This document shows positions 1,234 through 42,773 of a stretch of 44,784 bases of DNA, in pieces. Location of the stretch: positions 1 through 44,784 of the forward strand of contig JAJKJM010000079.1 of the NCBI GenBank assembly GCA_021153985.1. Direction: 5' to 3'. Position 1 is the stretch's first letter, and each line of letters begins with the position of its first letter. The position numbers and the translations under genes are program-made. The notes beneath the pieces were generated by a model. That model was not told where the DNA came from. It saw only the letters and a program-made list of their open reading frames with translations, and ran no database searches. The DNA comes from Polaromonas sp. (GTDB lineage: Bacteria; Pseudomonadota; Gammaproteobacteria; Burkholderiales; Burkholderiaceae_C).

Positions 1234-2112
1234 GTGACTCGTGAGTTGATTCTTTATTGCGACGAGTCCGACTCTTCAGGAAAGCATTTCGCCAATTTTT
1301 ATGGCGGCGCACTGGTGGAGTCGAAACATCAAGCGGAGGTGATAGCTCGCCTGGAAGGCTGCAAAGAACGCCTAAATCTTTATGGCGAACTCAAATGGCA
1401 GAAGATCACTGAGCCGTATGCTCAGAAGTACATGGATTTCTTGGAAGAAGTCTTTCTCCTGGTTAAAGAGGGAAAACTCAAATTCCGAATCATGTTCACG
1501 CAGAACTATTTTTCAGCACATCGGCTGACCACCGAGCAGCGGGAGAACGGGTTTTTTCTTCTGTACTACCAATTTATCAAGCACGCTTTTGGGCTACGGC
1601 ACGCAGGACTCGCTGGCGTTAAAACTGGAGTTCGAATCTATTTTGATAAGTTGCCGGATACCTCTGAGAAATGTGCGGCATTCAAGGGCTTTGTTACGGG
1701 GCTTAATAGCAGCTCGGGCTTCCGCCGAGCGAATGTGTACATACGCCCCGACCAACTTGCCGAGATTGACTCGAAGGAACACGTCATCCTTCAAGCATTG
1801 GATGTGATCCTCGGCTCCATTCCGTTCAGGCTCAACGACAAGCATAAAGAAAAGCCAGAGGGATCGAGGGTGCGGGGCAAAAGAACAATTGCCAAGGAGC
1901 GTGTTTACAAGAGAGTACTTGCCGAAATCCGCGCCGCATATGGAGGCAAGGCGTTCAATATCGGTATTTCGACAGGTACAAGTCCTGGCTTGGAAAGCAG
2001 GTGGGATGACCCATACCGGCACTGGATTTTTAAGCCCGCGGATGGCGTTGTGAAACCAGAGTTCGCTAAAAAGCGTGGCGGGAAAATAAAAAGCCCCGCA
2101 GGCACTACATAA
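1234..2112 (+). CDS. DUF3800 domain-containing protein
   Basis: 292-residue protein of the DUF3800 family, a group with a predicted RNase H-like fold whose function is not settled. The family hallmarks are the N-terminal LILYCDESDSSG (D10, E11, D13) followed by NFYGGALV, and the later ALDVILGSI (D190). The only usable start after the gyrB stop in this frame is GTG at 1234, only 21 bases past gyrB. The gene is visibly richer in A/T than gyrB, with different codon choice, which suggests acquisition by transfer. DUF3800 genes often occur in accessory and defence-rich regions (family knowledge). The nuclease-like role is inference. A perfect stem-loop follows the stop. Confidence 0.85.
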   Translation: MTRELILYCDESDSSGKHFANFYGGALVESKHQAEVIARLEGCKERLNLYGELKWQKITEPYAQKYMDFLEEVFLLVKEGKLKFRIMFTQNYFSAHRLTTEQRENGFFLLYYQFIKHAFGLRHAGLAGVKTGVRIYFDKLPDTSEKCAAFKGFVTGLNSSSGFRRANVYIRPDQLAEIDSKEHVILQALDVILGSIPFRLNDKHKEKPEGSRVRGKRTIAKERVYKRVLAEIRAAYGGKAFNIGISTGTSPGLESRWDDPYRHWIFKPADGVVKPEFAKKRGGKIKSPAGTT

Positions 2113-2116
2113 AGGT

Positions 2117-2133
2117 CCCAAGTGAAACTTGGG
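2117..2133 (+). terminator. Perfect stem-loop after the DUF3800 gene
   Basis: CCCAAGT, loop GAA, ACTTGGG: a perfect 7-bp stem starting 5 bases after the DUF3800 stop. There is no T-tract, so it may be an RNA 3'-end stabiliser or weak terminator rather than a classical intrinsic terminator. Confidence 0.35.
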
Positions 2134-2309
2134 CGTTCGCGCGCTGAAGGGCAGTTAAATTATAAGTGAAGAGAGCAAAAGCATGCAAATTCGACATTTT
2201 GGGTAAAAAATGCACCCGTACCCGGTCCTGAATTAGTGGTTCGTGCATTGCGCAGAATCACCGGTGCAAACCGGACCACCTCCATAAATCTATTGCCAAG
2301 AAGATTGTT

Positions 2310-14021: not shown

Positions 14022-14063
14022 CGCTGGCCCTCACCCCCGCCCTCTCCCAGAGGGAGAGGGAGT
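14022..14063. repeat. REP-like palindrome
   Basis: CCGCTGGCCCTCACCCCCGC followed by the palindrome CCCTCTCCC-AGA-GGGAGAGGG. The same unit occurs at 40187-40223 and 40256-40299. A related form (CCCTCCCCC ... GGGGGAGGG) occurs at 35554-35666, 42481-42610 and 42646-42773. Confidence 0.75.
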
Positions 14064-15038: not shown

Positions 15039-15878
15039 ATGATGAACGCCACGCCGCAAGCCGTCGCCAGCCCTTCTGCCCACACCGCGCTGCTTGCCAG
15101 CGAGCCTGAGCGCGCCGCCTACCGCGACTACGCGCAGCCGGGCATTGACAGGGTGCGCACGTTCTACCGCAACAACCACCAGCACCAGACGCTGGACTTT
15201 GTGCGGGCCAAGAAGGCGCAGTGGCTGACGTTTTCGCAGCGCGAGATGACGCCCTGGGCGGCGCTGGAATTTCTGAACACGCTGGTGGACGAGTCCGACC
15301 CCGACATCGAGTTGCCGCAGATCAGCCACCTGCTGCAAACCGCCGAAGCGATACGCGCCGACGGCCACCCTGACTGGTTTGTGCTGACGGGCTTTATCCA
15401 TGACCTGGGCAAGGTGCTGTGCCTGTTTGGCGAGCCCCAGTGGGCGGTGGTGGGCGATACCTTTCCGGTGGGATGCAAGTTTTCAGACCGGGTGGTGTAC
15501 CCCGAATACTTTGCGCTGAACCCTGACAGTGCGGATGCGCGCTACAACACTGAGCTTGGCATCTACACGCCTGGATGTGGGCTGGATGCGGTGCATATGT
15601 CGTGGGGGCATGACGAGTATCTTTATCAGCTGATGAAGGCGCATTTGCCGCTGCCTGCGCTGTACATGATTCGGTATCACTCGTTTTATGCGTGGCATCG
15701 GGAAGGGGCGTATGGGCATCTGGTTGATGCGCAGGATGTTGCGCATCTGGAGTGGGTGCGCAAGTTCAACCCTTATGACCTTTATTCGAAGAATGACAGG
15801 CCGCCTGTGCTGGCGGAGCTCAAGCCTTATTACGAGGACTTGATGGCTAAGTATTTGCCTGCCTCGCTCAAGCTCTAG
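15039..15878 (+). CDS. Inositol oxygenase (MIOX) family protein
   Basis: 279-residue non-haem di-iron oxygenase closely resembling animal and plant myo-inositol oxygenase, which converts myo-inositol to D-glucuronate. All six iron ligands of the family are present: H97 (ISHLLQTAE), H121-D122 (FIHDLGKV), H191 (MSWGHDEY), H214 (RYHSFYAW) and D247 (FNPYDLY). The substrate-contact stretch [16 protein letters not shown] is conserved, and the length is normal for the family. Two adjacent ATGs (15039, 15042) are possible starts. No inositol transport or glucuronate genes are next to it, so its pathway is not shown by context. High similarity to eukaryotic MIOX in a bacterium suggests ancient transfer, which is inference. 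Confidence 0.92.
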
Positions 15879-30450: not shown

Positions 30451-31776
30451 TCACTCCTGGGGCTCTGCTAGCGGCGGGGCCGTGCCGTGGAGGAGGGTTT
30501 CGAAGAGGTTCTCGCCGCCCATTTGCCCGCCTTTGAGCATGACCTCCATGCCGTCGAGCGCGGCCTCGTCGCTGTGCAGGCGGCACAGGGCGACGCCGGG
30601 CGCGAGTTGCGCCGCATACGACAAGCCCCAGGCGTTGAGTGCCTGCACGGCGTGGCTGGAGGTGTCGCCGCCGGCAATGCCGAGGCGGCGCAGGGGGGCG
30701 GCCTTGAGCACGCGCGCCAGCAGCTCGCCAGAGGCTTGTGCCAGCGCGCGGCTGTCAACGGCGGCGCCCGGCGCGGAGCCTGGGGCCGAGGTGCAGGCCA
30801 GCACGTGACGGCCCTGGGCCAGCAGTTCGGAGATTTGTGCCGCCATCTGCTGCGCATACGCCGCATCGCCGGTGAGGCGCGTGGCGTCCAGCGCGACTTG
30901 CCGGTAGGAGCTGGCGGCCCGGACCTGCAGCGCCGTCATGGGCGACAGGCTGCCGGCCAGTACCAGCACGGGGCCCGTGGCGGCGTCGATGCGGGATGTT
31001 GTTTGTATTGCGGCTTGCCAATGCGCAGCCAGGGCCTGTACCACGCTGCTGGGCCCGACGGCCAGCAGGCGCTGGTGTTGCGCGCGCTGCCAGATGAGCC
31101 GGCCCACAGTGGCCAGGTGGCCGGTGTGGGCGACGTCGAGCAGAACCGCGTCGGGCTTTTGCGCCATGAGCGTGTCGAGCTGCCGGTTCAGCGCTTCGGC
31201 GTCCTGTTCGTAGCCGGGGTAATCAAGGCCTGCGACTTGCGCCAGGCCCTGCGCGGCCAGGTGCTTGCGCAGGTCGGCTTCGTGCATGGGCGTGACGGGA
31301 TGCCGGCTCATGGTGGGGTGGCGGTCTATGCGGTAGATGCTTTCACCGGCGCGGGCAAACAGGTTGCCGAAGACGCAGTAGCGCCCGAGGTTCGGCTGGC
31401 CGCCCACGATGGGCACCAGTGTGTTCCCGGCGTGCGGCTGCAGGATGCGGATGGCCGCGCCTATGCTGCCGACGTGGGGTGCGCTGTCAAAGGTCGAGCA
31501 GGTTTTGTAGTGCATGACGGGCGCGCCCAGTGCGGCGAAGAGCCGCCCGACCGGTTCAAGCTCCGCCCGCATTTCGCCGGGGCTCATCGCGCGGGCAGCG
31601 CCGGCGATGCCCAGGCAGTCCAGCGGGCCGGCGCGCTGCAGTTGCGCGTCCGTCGGCAGGCCGAGAAACAGCAGCGTGCGAAGCCCTGCGCGTGCGGCTG
31701 TGGCCAGCGTGTCGGTGGCGCCGGTGAAGTCGTCGCCGTAATAAGCCACCTTGAGCCGGCTGTCGTGCAGGACCAT
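30451..31776 (-). CDS. Four-carbon acid sugar kinase family protein (DUF1537; OiaK-like)
   Basis: 441-residue kinase of the DUF1537/OtnK family. N-terminal AYYGDDFTGATDTL, then HYKTCSTFDSAPHVGSIG (substrate side), and C-terminal nucleotide-binding stretches including LVLAGSLSPMTALQ and GIAGGDTSSHAVQ. The family phosphorylates four-carbon and branched sugar acids. When paired with a RuBisCO-like protein, as here, characterised members act on 3-oxo-isoapionate (OiaK), giving the substrate of the OiaX decarboxylase. It starts 3 bases after the RuBisCO-like stop, the last gene of the operon. The actual substrate here is inference. Confidence 0.85.
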   Translation of the reverse strand: MVLHDSRLKVAYYGDDFTGATDTLATAARAGLRTLLFLGLPTDAQLQRAGPLDCLGIAGAARAMSPGEMRAELEPVGRLFAALGAPVMHYKTCSTFDSAPHVGSIGAAIRILQPHAGNTLVPIVGGQPNLGRYCVFGNLFARAGESIYRIDRHPTMSRHPVTPMHEADLRKHLAAQGLAQVAGLDYPGYEQDAEALNRQLDTLMAQKPDAVLLDVAHTGHLATVGRLIWQRAQHQRLLAVGPSSVVQALAAHWQAAIQTTSRIDAATGPVLVLAGSLSPMTALQVRAASSYRQVALDATRLTGDAAYAQQMAAQISELLAQGRHVLACTSAPGSAPGAAVDSRALAQASGELLARVLKAAPLRRLGIAGGDTSSHAVQALNAWGLSYAAQLAPGVALCRLHSDEAALDGMEVMLKGGQMGGENLFETLLHGTAPPLAEPQE

Positions 31777-31779
31777 CGT

Positions 31780-33045
31780 TTACTTGCCAAAGAAGGCCAG
31801 CGCCGCCGCCAGTTCGGGCGCCTCACGCGCACGGTCGGCCAGCGCGACGCCATCGCGTGCGGCCGCCCAGGCCTGGCGGATGCTGGCCACGCCCGCCGCA
31901 GGCCCGCCCGGGTGCGCCAGGATGCCGCCGCCGGACATAAAGAGCAGGTCGTCGCTTTTCACCGCCGCCCAGGTGGCAGGCACGGTGCCGGCCCATTGGC
32001 CCGACGAGAAGGCCGGCATGACGCGGTCATCGAACCCATCGGTTAGCGGCGTGTAGCAGTCGTGCGCGGATTCAATCACCTCTTCATCAGGCTGCGAGAA
32101 CTTGCCTTGCAGGCCGTGCACGTGCATGTGGTCAACGCCCGCCAGGCGCCACAGCGTTTGGTAAGCCTGGAAAGACATGCCCAGCAGCGGATGCCGCGAC
32201 AGTGCGCCATAGCCGTTGCGATGGCCGTGAACGGCCAGGCCGGTGTGGCGGCGCAGCGTTTGCATGCCGGAATGGCCGCACCAGTTGAGGCTGGCCATGA
32301 CGCAGCTGCCGCCTTCGCGCGCAACCAGGTCGGCGTGGCGCTTCATGGCATCGGTTTCGTCGGTGATGTTGAAAGCCACCATCACGTGCTTGCCGGTGCG
32401 CTGCTGGTGATCGCGCACCACGGCCATCACGGTGGGTACGCGCTGGGCCAGCGGGGCATGGGCCGGGTCGGCGCAGACTTCGTCGTCCTTGATGAAGTCC
32501 ACACCGGCCGCGCACAGTCGCGCCACCAGCTCGGCGGTTTGCGCGGCGCTGAAGCCGACATTGGGTTTGATGATGGTGCCGACCAGCGCGCCGCTGGCCA
32601 CGCCGGTGGCCTTGCGCGTGCCGGCGATGCCGGCCTGGGGCATGTCGAACTGCGCGCGGTAGGCGGCGGGCAGCTTGAGGCTTTCAAGCCGCAGGCCGCT
32701 GGCTTCGCCGAGGTCGTACAGATTGCCCGAGACGGTAGCCGCAAGAGTTGGAAGATTCGCGCCTACGTTGGCGACAGGGAAGGAAATGCGCACGCGGGCA
32801 CGCCGCCATGGGCCTGTGTGGCCTTTTCGTTCGAGCAGTGCATTGGGCAGGCTGGGTGCGCTCACTGATTCGAGCTCGTCAATCTGCTCGACCGTGGCGC
32901 GTGCGCGCTGGCGCAGCTCGTCGGTTTCGCCTTCCACGCGGGTGAAGGTGCCGCAGGACTGTTCGCCTGCCATCACTTCGGCCACCTGCGCGGGTGGCAG
33001 CGGGGTTTCGATCAGGTAGGTGGCTTCAAAGCGGTCGGCTTGCAT
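31780..33045 (-). CDS. RuBisCO-like protein (type IV family; OiaX-like decarboxylase candidate)
   Basis: 421-residue member of the RuBisCO large-subunit superfamily. Active-site positions equivalent to true RuBisCO are retained: K160 in TIIKPNVGF (K175), the carbamate Lys and metal ligands FIKDDE (K186, D188, E189), HGHR (H275, R276), DHMHVHGLQGK (H308, loop-6 K315) and SGGG (S371). True RuBisCO is excluded by overall divergence, by the absence of a small subunit or phosphoribulokinase, and by the kinase/TRAP context. Characterised relatives beside DUF1537 kinases decarboxylate 3-oxo-isoapionate 4-phosphate (OiaX). It lies 13 bases after the VOC gene. Confidence 0.88.
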   Translation of the reverse strand: MQADRFEATYLIETPLPPAQVAEVMAGEQSCGTFTRVEGETDELRQRARATVEQIDELESVSAPSLPNALLERKGHTGPWRRARVRISFPVANVGANLPTLAATVSGNLYDLGEASGLRLESLKLPAAYRAQFDMPQAGIAGTRKATGVASGALVGTIIKPNVGFSAAQTAELVARLCAAGVDFIKDDEVCADPAHAPLAQRVPTVMAVVRDHQQRTGKHVMVAFNITDETDAMKRHADLVAREGGSCVMASLNWCGHSGMQTLRRHTGLAVHGHRNGYGALSRHPLLGMSFQAYQTLWRLAGVDHMHVHGLQGKFSQPDEEVIESAHDCYTPLTDGFDDRVMPAFSSGQWAGTVPATWAAVKSDDLLFMSGGGILAHPGGPAAGVASIRQAWAAARDGVALADRAREAPELAAALAFFGK

Positions 33046-33058
33046 GGTGAAGTGACGC

Positions 33059-33598
33059 TCAAAGTTTGCTGAGATCAGGAAAGGGCCGCACCGGGTCGCT
33101 GCCGTCCCAGCCTTCGCTCGACGCGCGGATCAGGTCGAACATCTTGCCCTTGGGGCCGGCGACTTCCGAAAGCTCGATCACGGTGCCGGGGTGGTATTCG
33201 GTGTCGAAGTAGATGAAGCGGCCGTTCTCGCCGACCTCGCCTTTCATCACCGGCTTGAAGCCTTGCTTGAGCAGGCGCTCCAGGTCGGCGTCGTAACTCG
33301 TCGTCCAGTAGGCGACGTGCTGCAGCCCGGTGCGGCCGGCCTGCAGGAAGTCGCGGTACATCGAGGGCACATCGTTGCGCGTCTGGATCAGCTCGACCTG
33401 GACAAAACCCGAGTTGGCCAGCGCCACCGAGTTGTGCGGTTCGTGCGATTCGCCTTTGTAGCTGTAGTTTTTGATGGGCACCTTGGGGTTGTAGAACCAG
33501 GGGCCGACGCCCAGGGTTTCGCTCCAGTACTTCATCGCGGCTTCGATGTCGGGCACGACGTAGCCCAGCTGGCGGATCTCGCCAAAAAATTTGCTCAT
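33059..33598 (-). CDS. VOC family protein in the RuBisCO-like operon
   Basis: 179-residue vicinal-oxygen-chelate protein with two modules: IRQLGYVVPDIEAAMKYWSE and GLQHVAYWTTSYDADLERLL. Likely metal ligands are Q at the first strand, E in FVQVELIQ, H in LQHVAYW and E in TVIELSEV. It resembles methylmalonyl-CoA epimerase-like VOC proteins, whose chemistry includes proton shifts next to a carbonyl. An isomerase or epimerase step on a sugar acid would fit the operon (inference). GGAG precedes ATG 33598. It is read between the TRAP permease and the RuBisCO-like gene. Confidence 0.85.
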   Translation of the reverse strand: MSKFFGEIRQLGYVVPDIEAAMKYWSETLGVGPWFYNPKVPIKNYSYKGESHEPHNSVALANSGFVQVELIQTRNDVPSMYRDFLQAGRTGLQHVAYWTTSYDADLERLLKQGFKPVMKGEVGENGRFIYFDTEYHPGTVIELSEVAGPKGKMFDLIRASSEGWDGSDPVRPFPDLSKL

Positions 33599-33627
33599 GT
33601 TGTTTTGCTCCAGTGAAAAGGGGAGGT

Positions 33628-35511
33628 TCAGGTTTTAAGGAAGCCGGTGGAGAACCAGGGCACGGCTGCCACCAGGGCCAGGCCTATCAGCAGCGCGCCC
33701 ATATAGGCCCAGATGTAGGGAATGCCTTCGTCGGGGTCGACCTTGCTGACCGCGCAGGCGCCGTAGTAGCCGACACCGAAGGGCGGCGCGAACAGGCCAA
33801 TGCCCATGGCGAAGATCACGACCATGGCGTAGTGCACGTCATGCACACCGACCATGCGCGCGATGGGAAAGAGCAGCGGGCCGAACAGCACGATGGCGGG
33901 GATGCCTTCGAGCACGCTGCCCAGGATGACAAAGGCGACGATGGACACGGCGAGGAAGCCGTAGGCCCCGCCGGGCAGGCTGCCCATGATGCGCGCCAGG
34001 TCTTGCGAGAAGCCCGACTGCGTGAGACCCCAGGCCATGGCGGTGGCGCAGCCGATGATGAACATGATGGCGCCGGTGAGCGAGGCGGTTTCGATCAGCA
34101 TGGGCATGAGGCGGCGCCATGGAAACTGCCGGTACAAAAAGAGGCCGGCCAGCACGGAATAGAAGATGCCGATGGTGGACACCTCGGTCGCCGTGGCCAC
34201 GCCTTCGACCACCGCGGCGCGGATGACGAAGGGCAGGATGATGGCGGGCAGGGCGATCAGCAACAGCTTGCCGATTTCGCGTTTGCTGTGGCGCGCGACG
34301 CCGCTCAGGTCTTCATGGCGGTAGCGCCACCACACGACGGTGCAGAGCGCTGCGCCTAACACCACGGCCGGCAGCAGGCCGCCGGTAAACAGCGCGGCAA
34401 TCGACACGCCGGTGACAGAGCCGATGGTGATCAGCACGATGGAGGGCGGAATGGTTTCGGTCTGCGCGCCGGTCGCCGACAGCAGCGCCACCAGGTCGCC
34501 GGGCTTGGCGCCGCGCTTTTTCATTTCAGGAAAGAGCACCGGCGCAATCGCGGCCATGTCGGCGATCTTGGAGCCCGAGATGCCCGAGACCAGGTACATC
34601 GCACCGATCAGCACATAGCTGAGGCCGCCGCGCACGTGGCCCAGCAGGCTGGCCAGGAACTGGATCATGGCCTTGGCCATGCCCGTCATCTCGATCAGCG
34701 CACCCAGAAAGATAAAGAGCGGCACCGCCAGCAGGATCATGTGCGACATGCCTTCGTCCATGCGGCCGACCATGACGAGCAGCGGCGTTGACGTGGTGAG
34801 GGCCAGGTAGCCGAAGGTGGCGAGCGCGAACGAGAAGGCGATGGGCACGCCCGACAGCACGGTGCTGGCGACGATGATGACAAAGAAGATGATCAGGTTG
34901 AGCTTGCCCAGCGGCTGGAGCAGCGGCTGCGCGAACCAGAACAGCAGGACCACGGCGGCGGTGCCGGCCAGCGCAATGCCGGTTTGTTTGAAGGTGCTGA
35001 TGCGCAGCAGCCGCAGCACGGCGACGATGACCATCAGCGCCATGCCGACAGGAATCGCTGCGGCGCGCCAGGCGTTGTTGACTTCCATCGCCGCGGTGAC
35101 GATGAAGCTTTCTTCATAGGCGTATTCGCCCGCCGGGTAGATCACCAGCACCAGGAAGGCGATGGAGGCGGTGATGGCAATCGTGTCGAGCAGCGCGCGG
35201 GTGGGCGGGCTCACGTTGTTAACCAGCGCCGTCATGCGCATGTGCTCGCCGCGGCGCAGCGCGACGACGGCGCCCAGCATGGACAGCCAGAGGAACATGA
35301 TGGACGCGAGCTCGTCCGACCAGACCAGCGGCGAATGGAACACGTAGCGCGAGACCACGCCGGCGAACAGCACGAAGATCTCGGCCAGCACGAGGGCTGC
35401 GGCGATGGATTCCACCACAGTGCCCAGGGCGCGGTCGGCCTTGTGCGCGAGGCCGCTTAGCGGGTTGGCGGGCGGGGCGTCAGCAGCGGGTTGTGGGGAG
35501 GGAAGGGACAT
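33628..35511 (-). CDS. TRAP transporter fused permease (DctQ-DctM)
   Basis: 627-residue membrane protein with the small TRAP subunit (about residues 25-190, DELASIMFLWLSMLGAVVALRRGEHMRM) fused to the large DctM subunit (about 205-620, with SGSKIADMAAIAPVLFPEMKKRG and the GIGLFAPPFGVGYYGAC motif). It imports an organic or sugar acid using a sodium gradient together with the binding protein encoded upstream. GGAG before ATG 35511. A BIME-like repeat separates it from the binding-protein gene in the same operon. Confidence 0.92.
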   Translation of the reverse strand: MSLPSPQPAADAPPANPLSGLAHKADRALGTVVESIAAALVLAEIFVLFAGVVSRYVFHSPLVWSDELASIMFLWLSMLGAVVALRRGEHMRMTALVNNVSPPTRALLDTIAITASIAFLVLVIYPAGEYAYEESFIVTAAMEVNNAWRAAAIPVGMALMVIVAVLRLLRISTFKQTGIALAGTAAVVLLFWFAQPLLQPLGKLNLIIFFVIIVASTVLSGVPIAFSFALATFGYLALTTSTPLLVMVGRMDEGMSHMILLAVPLFIFLGALIEMTGMAKAMIQFLASLLGHVRGGLSYVLIGAMYLVSGISGSKIADMAAIAPVLFPEMKKRGAKPGDLVALLSATGAQTETIPPSIVLITIGSVTGVSIAALFTGGLLPAVVLGAALCTVVWWRYRHEDLSGVARHSKREIGKLLLIALPAIILPFVIRAAVVEGVATATEVSTIGIFYSVLAGLFLYRQFPWRRLMPMLIETASLTGAIMFIIGCATAMAWGLTQSGFSQDLARIMGSLPGGAYGFLAVSIVAFVILGSVLEGIPAIVLFGPLLFPIARMVGVHDVHYAMVVIFAMGIGLFAPPFGVGYYGACAVSKVDPDEGIPYIWAYMGALLIGLALVAAVPWFSTGFLKT

Positions 35512-35553
35512 GGAATCTCCGGGAGGAAGGCGAGAGGATTGCGGCTGCTGGTT

Positions 35554-35666
35554 TTACTCCTTCCCCCGCTGGGGGAAGGTTGGGATGGGGGCCTGCGGCC
35601 GTGGCAGAAGCGCTTGCAACCGCCGCTGGCCCCCACCCCTGCCCTCCCCCAGCGGGGGAGGGAGTA
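35554..35666. repeat. BIME-like composite repeat within the TRAP operon
   Basis: Two different palindromic arms in one unit: CTCCTTCCCCCGCTGGGGGA and CCCTCCCCCAGCGGGGGAGG, joined by about 60 bases. It is the reverse complement of the two copies in the thi operon (42481, 42646). It sits between the TRAP binding-protein and permease genes and could form a processing or attenuation hairpin in that mRNA. Confidence 0.8.
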
Positions 35667-35681
35667 AGACGTGGGAGAGCT

Positions 35682-36701
35682 TTACGCCAGCTTGCCGACC
35701 GACTGCTCCAGCAAGCCCCAGGCCTCGGCGCCGAACCGTTCTTTCCACTCGTTGTAAAAGCCCGCTTCACGCAGCTTGGCGCGGAAGCTATCCGCTTGCG
35801 GGCGATTGATGGTCAGGCCCTTGGTTTGCAGATCAGCCACCACGGTTTCATTGAGCTTCTTGATGTCGTCGCGCTGCTGCAGGCCGGCTTCGTTGATGGC
35901 GCGGGCCACGATGGTCTTGAGGTCGGCGGGGAGCTTTTCCCAGGCGCGGCCGTTGGCGATGAACCAGTAGCCGTCCCAGATGTGGTTGGTCAGCGAGCAG
36001 AACTTTTGCACCTCATACAGCTTGGCGACCTGGATGATGGGCAGCGGGTTTTCCTGGGCGTCGACGATCTTGGTTTGGAGCGAGGAATACACCTCGCTGA
36101 ACTGCAGGCTGGCGGGCGCGGCGCCCAGGCCTTTGAACATGGAGATCGACAGCGGGCTCACCGGCACGCGGATCTTCAGGCCGTCCATGTCTTTGGCGGT
36201 GGTGACGGGCGCCTTGCTGCTGGTGGTCTGGCGGAAACCGTTGTCCCACATCTTTTCAAAGGCATAGAGGCGGCTCTTGCTGATGGCTTCGCGCACATGC
36301 GCGCCCAGCTTGCCGTCCATGGCACCCCAGACCTGGCTGTAGTCGCTGAAGGCAAAACCGACGGCGTTGATGGCGGCTACCGGCACCAGCGTGGCGATGA
36401 CCAGGGCCGACGGCGTGAAGAACTCGATGCCGCCGGAGCGCACCTGGGCCAGCATGTCGGTGTCGCCGCCCAGCTGGTTGTTCGGGAAGATCTTGATCTC
36501 GACCCGGCCGTTGGTTTCTTTCAGGATGCGGTCGGCCGCCTGCTGGGCGCGGATATTGAGCGGGTGGGTGACGGGCAGGTTGTTGCCGTACTTGTAGGAG
36601 AACTCGGCGGCGCGGGCCATGGAGGGCAGGGCGGCGGCGATGCCGGCGGCGGATGCGGCGGACAGGGTGCGCAGCACGCTGCGGCGGGTGACTTCGGTCA
36701 T
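35682..36701 (-). CDS. TRAP transporter substrate-binding protein (DctP family)
   Basis: 339-residue periplasmic binding protein. The signal begins TRRSVLRTLSAASAAG, a twin-arginine-type leader, with cleavage after ARA. The mature part has the DctP pattern: YGNNLPVTHPLNIRAQQAA, GGDTDMLAQVRSGGIEF, LKIRVPVSP, QFSEVYSSLQTKIVDAQENP and HIWDGYWFI. The Arg of KIRVP is the usual carboxylate-binding residue, so the ligand is an acid. ATG 36701 with GGAGA upstream decides the start. It is the first gene of the operon, divergent from the LacI regulator. Confidence 0.92.
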   Translation of the reverse strand: MTEVTRRSVLRTLSAASAAGIAAALPSMARAAEFSYKYGNNLPVTHPLNIRAQQAADRILKETNGRVEIKIFPNNQLGGDTDMLAQVRSGGIEFFTPSALVIATLVPVAAINAVGFAFSDYSQVWGAMDGKLGAHVREAISKSRLYAFEKMWDNGFRQTTSSKAPVTTAKDMDGLKIRVPVSPLSISMFKGLGAAPASLQFSEVYSSLQTKIVDAQENPLPIIQVAKLYEVQKFCSLTNHIWDGYWFIANGRAWEKLPADLKTIVARAINEAGLQQRDDIKKLNETVVADLQTKGLTINRPQADSFRAKLREAGFYNEWKERFGAEAWGLLEQSVGKLA

Positions 36702-36719
36702 GGTTTGTCTCCAGTTTTG

Positions 36720-36742
36720 TTTTGATGCATTTTGATGCATCA
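36720..36742. promoter_or_regulatory. Candidate LacI-type operator before the TRAP/RLP operon
   Basis: TTTTGATGCAT at 36720-36730 and again at 36730-36740, exactly one helical turn apart; the second runs into the perfect palindrome TGATGCATCA (36733-36742). It lies 19-41 bases before the binding-protein ATG. Confidence 0.55.
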
Positions 36743-36806
36743 TCGGGTGAAAGCAGCGCAACGATAGGCGTGAGGTCTTCAATCGTCAAACGGGAAAAAT
36801 GATGGA

Positions 36807-36817
36807 TTTTGATGTAT
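36807..36817. promoter_or_regulatory. Third operator-like copy at the lacI-family start
   Basis: TTTTGATGTAT, one base different from the two copies at 36720-36740, overlapping the ATG of the regulator. This would allow autoregulation and joint control of both directions. Confidence 0.4.
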
Positions 36818-37880
36818 GAGGGTTATCCCTGAGGGTCTGGAAGGCTCACAACAGCGGGCCCGTGTGGTCGATATTGCGCGGGCTGCGGGAGTTTCCACCG
36901 CCACGGTCGACCGCGTGCTGAACCAGCGCCCGGGCGTGCGCGGGGCCACCGCGCAAAAGGTGCTCAAGGCCGCGGCCGAGATGGATTATTTGCCGGAGAC
37001 GGGCCTCTATGCCGCGCTGGCCGCGCCGCCCATGCGGCTGACCTTTTTGCTGCCCGACGGCAGCAACCGCTTTATCCGCATGCTGGGCGATACGGTGGGT
37101 TATTCGCAGGAGCACCTGACGCCCTTTAACGTGAAGTGCCGCACCGAGCTGTTTGAAAGCTTCAACCCGCAGCAGCTGGCCGCCAGCCTGCTGCAGCAAG
37201 GCAAGCGCAGCGAGGGCATTGCGTTTATGGCGCTGGAGCACCCGGCGGTGCGCGAAGCGGTGAGCGAGCTGGCCGAAAAAGGCGTGCCCACCATCACACT
37301 GATCTCGGATTTGTCGGGCTCGCAGCGCGCCGGTTATGTGGGCCTGGACAACCGCGCGGCGGGGCGCACGGCGGGTTACCTGGTGGGCCGATTTATCGGC
37401 CCCGGCGCGCGTGCCGGCAAGGTGGCGCTGATTGCCGGTTCATTGAGCTACCGCGCGCATGAAGAGCGTGAGGCAGGCTTTCTGCACGTGATTGAAGAGA
37501 TGTTTCCCACGCTGCAGGTGGTGGGCCTGCGCGAGGGGCAGGATGACGCGCAGAAGAATTACGAGCAGACGCGCACCCTGCTCGAGCAATACCCCGACCT
37601 CGCCGGCATCTACAACATAGGCGGCGCGTCTGACGGCGTGGCGCGCGCGCTGAAGGAGAGCGGGCGCGAGCACAAGGTGGTTTTTATCGGCCACGGCCTG
37701 ACACCTGACACGCGCGCGATGCTGATCGACGGCAGCATGGACGCGGTCATCACGCAAAGCCCGCAGACGGCGATGATGAGTTGTGTGCGGATGTTTACCA
37801 ATCTGCGGGACCGGCGGGATGTGATGAGCGGGGTGGATGCCGTGCGCAGTCAGGTCATCTTTCGCGAGAACTTACCCTGA
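36816..37880 (+). CDS. LacI family transcriptional regulator
   Basis: 354-residue LacI/GalR regulator. An N-terminal helix-turn-helix with hinge (VVDIARAAGVSTATVDRVLN, about 17-36, then RPGVRGATAQKVLKAA) is followed by a periplasmic-binding-like sensor domain with VPTITLISDLSGSQRAGYVG and YNIGGASDGVARAL. It is likely the local regulator of the divergent TRAP/RuBisCO-like operon, with the sugar acid or an intermediate as inducer (inference). Start ATG 36816 has no strong ribosome site; a later GTG near 36861 is possible. Confidence 0.9.
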   Translation: MRVIPEGLEGSQQRARVVDIARAAGVSTATVDRVLNQRPGVRGATAQKVLKAAAEMDYLPETGLYAALAAPPMRLTFLLPDGSNRFIRMLGDTVGYSQEHLTPFNVKCRTELFESFNPQQLAASLLQQGKRSEGIAFMALEHPAVREAVSELAEKGVPTITLISDLSGSQRAGYVGLDNRAAGRTAGYLVGRFIGPGARAGKVALIAGSLSYRAHEEREAGFLHVIEEMFPTLQVVGLREGQDDAQKNYEQTRTLLEQYPDLAGIYNIGGASDGVARALKESGREHKVVFIGHGLTPDTRAMLIDGSMDAVITQSPQTAMMSCVRMFTNLRDRRDVMSGVDAVRSQVIFRENLP

Positions 37881-38024: not shown

Positions 38025-38031
38025 GGCCTCA

Positions 38032-40151
<2,120 letters not shown>

Positions 40152-40186: not shown

Positions 40187-40299
40187 TTCCCTCTCCCTCT
40201 GGGAGAGGGCTAGGGTGAGGGCTCCCCGAATTCAATGAACGTCATCTTTTCATCCGCCGCCAGCCCTCACCCCTGCCCTCTCCCAGAGGGAGAGGGAGT
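40187..40299. repeat. Facing pair of REP-like palindromes between thiC and thiO
   Basis: The first unit 40187-40223 (CCCTCTCCCTCTGGGAGAGG, then TAGGGTGAGGGCT) and the second 40256-40299 (GCCCTCACCCCTGCCCTCTC, then CCAGAGGGAGAGGG) are inverted relative to each other and flank about 30 bases. Together they can form one large cruciform. The same palindrome is at 14022-14063. Confidence 0.78.
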
Positions 40300-42480: not shown

Positions 42481-42610
42481 GCTTCTTGCTCCCTCCCCCA
42501 CTGGGGGAGGGCAGGGGTGGGGGCCAGCGGCGGTGGACCATGCGCTTACGCAAAGGCCGCAGAGCCCCCATCCCAACCTTCCCCCAGAGGGGGAAGGAGT
42601 AATAACCGGA
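42481..42610. repeat. BIME-like repeat, thi copy A
   Basis: About 130 bases: GCTTCTTGCTCCCTCCCCCA, a G-rich complement, CAGGGGTGGGGGCCAGCGGC, GTGGACCATGCGCTTACGCA and finally CCTTCCCCCAGAGGGGGAAG. About 95% identical to the copy at 42646, and the reverse complement of 35554-35666. Confidence 0.85.
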
Positions 42611-42645: not shown

Positions 42646-42773
42646 GCTTCTTGCTCCCTCCCCCGCCGGGGGAGGGCAGGGGTGGGGGCCAGCGGCGGTG
42701 GACCATACGCTTACGCAAAGGCCGCAGGCCCCCATCCCAACCTTCCCCCAGCGGGGGAAGGAGTAAAACCGGA
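42646..42773. repeat. BIME-like repeat, thi copy B
   Basis: Second copy of the 42481 unit in the same orientation, separated by 35 unrelated bases. Its end runs to 8 bases before the thiE start, so the thiE ribosome-binding region is supplied by the repeat border. The whole 317-base gap between thiG and thiE is repeat DNA. Confidence 0.85.

Follow-up and report, generated by a model that had tools for sequence, protein, structure and literature searches.

A conserved operon of six genes, in which a RuBisCO-like protein (RLP) is encoded beside a protein of the VOC family, was identified at positions 30451–37880 of a 44,784-nucleotide contig of Polaromonas sp. (GenBank assembly GCA_021153985.1, contig JAJKJM010000079.1; this whole stretch is referred to below as the window). 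The operon is proposed to take up and degrade a small, probably C2-branched, sugar acid through import, isomerization by the VOC protein, phosphorylation and RuBisCO-like cleavage to 3-phosphoglycerate and a small acid, and the key intermediate would be 3-oxo-isoapionate or a closely related compound; this is a tentative reading, to which we assign a probability of roughly one in three (0.35). An earlier interpretation of the same region, made from the letters of the DNA and their translations (the sequence-only reading), is partly supported by the results.

Each of the six genes is an open reading frame (ORF) and matches the family proposed for it in the sequence-only reading. A LacI-family regulator with a periplasmic-binding-protein domain (36816–37880, plus strand; PF00356 and PF13407, Peripla_BP_4) is divergent from five genes on the minus strand, which encode, in order, the TRAP solute-binding protein (SBP) DctP (35682–36701; PF03480), the fused TRAP permease DctQ-DctM (33628–35511; PF04290 and PF06808), the VOC protein (33059–33598; PF13669, Glyoxalase_4), predicted here to be a metal-dependent isomerase, the RLP (31780–33045; PF00016 and PF02788) and a DUF1537 (four-carbon acid sugar) kinase (30451–31776; PF07005 and PF17042). 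The intergenic gaps are 3 bases between kinase and RLP, 13 between RLP and VOC, 29 between VOC and permease, and 170 between permease and DctP. The longest ORF of DctP reaches 36782, and likeness to homologues makes the ATG at 36701 the likelier start; the structure model of this protein is poor (pLDDT 61.3). The TRAP domains (DctP, 243.7 bits; DctQ, 98 bits; DctM, 341.5 bits) establish the transporter family, and both kinase domains (SBD_N, 191 bits; NBD_C, 105.2 bits) place the protein in the DUF1537 kinase family. Against the OiaK model NF042436 the kinase scored 338.4 bits, short of the cut-off of 700, and against the 3-oxo-tetronate kinase model (OtnK) 178.5 bits (cut-off, 350); the VOC protein did not reach the cut-off of 114.95 for the methylmalonyl-CoA epimerase model TIGR03081. 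These family matches, with OiaK and OiaX as the best curated models for the kinase and the RLP, bear out the earlier proposal of an importer, a kinase and an RLP for an acid sugar.

The neighbourhood search for the kinase-RLP-VOC-TRAP set that the sequence-only reading had suggested was performed on a main set of 131 rows, comprising 22 plasmid loci picked from RLP matches, the best 80 of 582 named genome loci, two annotated OiaX plasmid loci and 27 genome stretches (7 + 20); three rows (L151, L153 and L154; L and G numbers denote our loci and genomes) are repeats with identical RLP DNA, leaving 128 distinct loci. With the VOC gene called present at more than 60% identity, it was found beside a same-strand RLP in 92 of the 128 distinct RLP loci, a linkage count that is partly a product of construction, the majority of loci having been fetched via the RLP. 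In all 92 distinct VOC loci the RLP gene lies 0–310 bases from the VOC gene on the same strand, and the kinase and the LacI gene are each present in 91, the exceptions being a contig end (L016) and a 6-kb contig (L043), respectively. A search seeded with the VOC protein, which is a fairer test of conservation than the RLP-fetched set, identified a VOC protein of at least 68% identity in eight genomes, the window's own included, out of 398 from the same phylum, and an RLP adjoins in all eight. Seven further VOC units came from a search of 295 genomes of one family seeded with the TRAP binding protein of PDB entry 4oan, a relative of the window DctP, in which 12 places and two more were opened: three are ordinary (L235, L237 and L239) and four have no RLP beside the VOC gene (L236, L242, L250 and L251). 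Counted over all 99 distinct VOC units opened, the RLP adjoins the VOC gene in 95. In L242, L250 and L251, from three genomes, the VOC gene, the DUF1537 kinase and the TRAP transporter are retained and an aldolase of the DeoC/LsrF type replaces the RLP. VOC paralogues were also found at 11 places with 47–53% identity and at nine places with 28–36%; no RLP match was found near either group in the stretches opened, and the genes around them did not point to a function. Thus the six genes form a conserved operon, the VOC gene is among its most constant parts, and the gene set is widespread in bacteria.

The RLP carries both RuBisCO large-chain domains above their cut-offs (PF00016, 204.1 bits; PF02788, 35.1 bits) and is therefore a member of the superfamily. 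The sequence-only reading had likened the RLP and the kinase to OiaX and OiaK, which phosphorylate and decarboxylate 3-oxo-isoapionate; the resemblance holds in that these are the best-scoring curated models, and it is not supported at the level of function, since the RLP scored 437.8 bits against the OiaX model NF042437 (cut-off, 700; the annotated OiaX of L105 scored 785.5), the kinase fell far short of the OiaK cut-off as given above, the RLP lies outside the OiaX clade, and four residues replaced in that clade are retained. Scores against form III RuBisCO (TIGR03326, 226.4 bits; cut-off, 497.45) and MtnW/YkrW (TIGR03332, 123.3 bits; cut-off, 513.6) were also too low, and by the latter score the RLP is not a methionine-salvage enzyme, a relationship that the sequence-only reading had named as fatal to its proposal. 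The best solved relative is PDB 3nwr (652.5 bits over residues 3–420), deposited as “A rubisco-like protein” and presumably from Burkholderia fungorum. The RLP of Polaromonas sp. JS666 (L014) is 93% alike. The tree with OiaX that had been suggested was built from 66 rows, with a root of unsure position on the very long branch of RuBisCO. It did not group the window RLP with OiaX: the window RLP and 3nwr both fall in a VOC-linked clade of 29 rows (support 100/99), and OiaX falls in a separate clade of nine rows (100/100); a 30th VOC-linked row, L210, was placed outside the former.

With a form I RuBisCO as the reference, 15 of 17 active-site residues are retained in the window RLP, or 16 of 21 when neighbouring positions are counted, including (spinach numbering) K201, D203, E204, K175, H294, H327, K334, S379, E60 and N123; the two changes among the 17 are K177 to N and H298 to Y. 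At positions 60, 123, 327 and 379, the nine OiaX-clade sequences carry D, G, Q and G or C, whereas the other 33 RLP rows listed carry E, N, H and S, as does the window RLP; the OiaX-type signature was defined here from these nine sequences. An assignment of the window RLP as OiaX was rejected by score, tree and active-site residues together. The pattern suggests that OiaX shed part of the RuBisCO machinery on becoming a simple decarboxylase, and that decarboxylation is still not all that the RLP of the window does.

On the computed anatomy, conservation, active-site residues and clade, a route can be drawn in which every reaction, the direction of the VOC step and the substrate are predictions. 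The TRAP system would import the sugar acid, and the LacI protein would sense the acid or a product and govern the divergent promoters. The VOC protein, as a metalloenzyme, would isomerize the imported oxidized acid to the 3-oxo acid used by the kinase (3-oxo-isoapionate or a close relative), replacing an oxidoisomerase of the ApnO type. The assignment of this protein as a metal-dependent isomerase that makes the substrate of the kinase is drawn from its distribution, since the transporter, the dehydrogenase and even the lyase vary among units while the VOC protein and, almost always, the kinase stay. The DUF1537 kinase would then phosphorylate the terminal hydroxyl, and the RLP would move or lose the carboxylate, hydrate the product and cleave the carbon chain to give 3-phosphoglycerate and a small acid such as glycolate; with 3-phosphoglycerate as product, tetrulose-phosphate isomerases would be dispensable. 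RuBisCO-style carbon–carbon cleavage, probably to 3-phosphoglycerate, is expected over OiaX-type decarboxylation because the active-site residues are retained, the clade is separate and the OiaX-linked isomerase genes are limited to OiaX-clade loci.

Genes for TIM-like and RpiB-like isomerases, as in the annotated OiaX locus L105 (where the annotation gives family names only and we take them to be LerI and DerI), were identified in five of the 131 fetched loci, all of the OiaX clade, and in none of the 95 VOC rows (92 after dropping the three repeats). An ApnO-type query, presumably ApnO itself although the annotation reads only “phosphogluconate dehydrogenase C-terminal domain”, matched in 15 of the 131 loci and likewise in none of the 95 VOC rows. 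The sequence-only reading had noted that the lactonase and oxidoisomerase genes are missing from the unit, and this was confirmed: no lactonase is present among the ORFs of the unit, and the ApnO-type query had no match in the unit or elsewhere in the window's genome, which is 88.9% complete and was searched without a positive control of its own. In the VOC unit of genome G217, both the RLP and the kinase come from another clade, in which three of the seven other rows (L096, L192 and L198) lie near an ApnO-type gene; since this clade includes ApnO-linked rows, the same kinase-RLP step appears to fit behind either VOC or ApnO. Among the 26 RLP loci lacking both this VOC gene and an OiaX-clade RLP, four (L012, L097, L099 and L197) have a pyruvate kinase or enolase gene nearby, which would suit 3-phosphoglycerate as the product. 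A gene of the Asp/Glu-racemase family was found near the RLP-kinase loci L098, L103, L194 and L196 and is perhaps another isomerase module.

The transporter and an SDR dehydrogenase are the variable parts. Among the 92 distinct VOC units, 59 have a TRAP system of the window type without an SDR gene, 13 have the same type with one, 13 have an ABC transporter of the polar-amino-acid type and seven have another TRAP system. A tree of 31 binding proteins, which omits L010 (the 13th SDR unit) and L074, groups 12 SDR units with one SDR-free unit, L054, apart from 14 SDR-free units. This arrangement weakly supports the idea that SDR units import a reduced acid, which the added dehydrogenase would oxidize, and that SDR-free units, the window's included, import an oxidized one; a close SDR gene of this kind was not found in the window's genome (best match, 37%; genome 88.9% complete). 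The protein 4oan, whose ligand is reportedly 2-acetolactate, was also considered as a guide to the ligand, and the argument was dropped. A passage of a review lists 2-acetolactate among TRAP ligands and does not name the protein. The best match of 4oan (100% over 308 residues) is in genome G499, where a putative acyl-CoA synthetase ORF comes after the SBP and TRAP genes, and no RLP match was found in the 16 kb opened there.

The points counted for the proposed route are the 15 of 17 residues, the isomerase distribution, the pyruvate kinase or enolase genes near four RLP loci, the G217 pair, the absence of ApnO, the DeoC/LsrF replacement and the SBP group of the SDR units; several observations weigh on the other side. 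Four genomes (G487, G447, G406 and G431) carry a VOC gene of 62–73% identity without an adjoining RLP, and the locus of G487 also lacks the kinase and the permease. Four of the nine OiaX-clade loci (L189, L190, L204 and L206) are likewise without the TIM-like and RpiB-like isomerase genes over the fetched stretch, so that the lack of these genes is weak evidence, and genes missing from a neighbourhood may still be encoded elsewhere in the genome. The other four of the seven rows in the clade of the G217 pair (L097, L104, L195 and L197) have an SDR gene and no ApnO match, and pyruvate kinase or enolase was found in none of the 95 VOC rows. The SDR label costs two changes on the SBP tree versus three on the RLP tree for the same 27 units, a small difference. 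The 4oan ligand says little for the window DctP, as the 4oan gene belongs to another operon type, and the clade-specific changes of K177 to N and of H298 to Y or F may point to another substrate. It is rather doubtful that the fuller claim will hold, namely that a distinct, unassigned RLP branch performs the full RuBisCO sequence of carboxylate transfer, hydration, carbon–carbon cleavage and protonation as part of heterotrophic metabolism, supplied by a new metal isomerase of the VOC fold that would take over from ApnO the alpha-ketol rearrangement of the carbon skeleton.

The least unlikely of the alternatives is a route for linear acids, in which the VOC protein would interconvert 2-oxo and 3-oxo acids as OtnI does, the kinase would produce 3-oxo-tetronate 4-phosphate or its C5 counterpart, and decarboxylation by the RLP, in the manner of OtnC, would yield dihydroxyacetone phosphate or a related ketose phosphate. 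Such a route would draw on 1,2-proton shifts, which are classic VOC chemistry, and it agrees with the sub-threshold match of the kinase to the 3-oxo-tetronate kinase model (178.5 bits; cut-off, 350) and with the replacement of the RLP by a DeoC-type enzyme. PMC7325909 and PMC8914248 cite DUF1537 work for RLPs in the breakdown of four-carbon acid sugars, a point in favour of the linear route; these citations, together with the four SDR-bearing, ApnO-free rows in the clade of the G217 pair, raise the weight of the linear route and lower that of the proposed one. Three observations speak against the linear route: the active site retains residues that are replaced in the decarboxylase OiaX, the kinase scores 338.4 bits as OiaK versus 178.5 as OtnK, and the kinase and RLP of the G217 unit come from a clade with ApnO-linked rows.

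Two further routes keep a branched substrate. A C6 acid such as hamamelonate or 2-carboxyarabinitol, split by the RLP as an oxygenase or cleaving enzyme into two products such as 3-phosphoglycerate and glycolate, would suit the RuBisCO-type active site. PMC10176493 cites a paper whose title describes an RLP oxygenase of a D-hamamelose pathway, and PMC8914248 ties the Ochrobactrum RLP of this pathway (Kim 2018) to 3-phosphoglycerate and glycolate, the direction being unclear. The window unit, unlike the Ochrobactrum pathway, has no sugar-oxidizing genes, SDR and lactonase both being absent from it; we regard this route as slightly less likely than the linear one. The least probable alternative is that the RLP and the kinase do act as OiaX and OiaK, the genes for entry lying elsewhere, whereby the RLP would decarboxylate 3-oxo-isoapionate 4-phosphate to L-erythrulose 1-phosphate. 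OiaX and OiaK are indeed the best NCBIfam models, but the scores lie far below the cut-offs, the clade is separate, the four OiaX-clade replacements are absent, none of the 95 VOC rows has the TIM-like or RpiB-like isomerase gene, and the own genome gave no ApnO match in the search without a positive control.

A candidate operator was identified between the divergent DctP and LacI genes, the palindrome TGATGCATCA (36733–36742, assigned to no strand), which ranks first among all 1024 ten-base palindromes. Of the 92 LacI upstream regions compared, 12 hold an exact copy and 27, the window's included, hold a copy with no more than one mismatch; the regions share descent and the majority are without TGATGCATCA, so it is offered as a lead only. 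A palindromic repeat, CCCTCNCCC...GGGNGAGGG, occurs in nine copies with at most two mismatches in the window (chance expectation, 0.04): two (35559–35579 and 35642–35662) sit in the 170-base gap between DctP and the permease, and the others lie at 14040–14060, 40189–40209, 40276–40296, 42491–42511, 42577–42597, 42656–42676 and 42741–42761. Elsewhere in the window, a homologue of myo-inositol oxygenase, a family known mainly from eukaryotes, is encoded at 15039–15878 (plus strand; PF05153, 369.9 bits). A DUF3800-VIII RNA (2090–2155, minus strand; Rfam, 50.2 bits) overlaps the end of an opposite-strand DUF3800 protein gene (1234–2112, plus strand), and a TPP riboswitch (38028–38152, plus strand; 69.8 bits) lies upstream of a long ORF (38145–40151) that reads like ThiC from its translation alone.

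The D-apionate pathways of Carter 2018 reportedly employ OiaK with OiaX or with an RLP transcarboxylase/hydrolase, which we take to be the protein named OiaT. The window unit resembles them in that a DUF1537 kinase and then an RLP would act on a phosphorylated branched 3-oxo acid, and differs from them in having no ApnO, no OiaX-linked isomerases, a constant VOC protein and an RLP that belongs to another clade and keeps a RuBisCO-type active site. Importers differ as well: VOC units use a TRAP or amino-acid-type ABC importer, whereas the OiaX locus L105 has a ribose-type ABC importer. Loci L012 (Cupriavidus) and L099 (Bradyrhizobium elkanii) share with the window a TRAP system (65–68%), an SBP (50–51%), an RLP and a kinase, but have an SDR gene, lack this VOC gene and lie near a pyruvate kinase gene. 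The review PMC6302742 gives decarboxylation, or transcarboxylation with hydrolysis, of 3-oxo-isoapionate 4-phosphate as the reactions of two apionate RLPs; the apionate study is cited in PMC6302742, PMC10176493 and PMC10103415, and according to the review PMC10176493 no more than a handful of RLPs have been characterized. Our literature search, which reached few subscription papers and not the key apionate and DUF1537 ones, found no report of the six-gene set and no paper on the function of 3nwr.

All the part families are known and the plan resembles apionate catabolism; what is new here is the RLP clade, the constant VOC protein and a unit without oxidoisomerase and isomerases. The four-residue split between the OiaX clade and the other listed RLPs offers annotators a simple marker to try. 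The clade of the window RLP already has a solved structure in 3nwr, and, should its RLP indeed split a phosphorylated acid, it would be a natural comparison for RuBisCO chemistry in the breakdown of carbon compounds.

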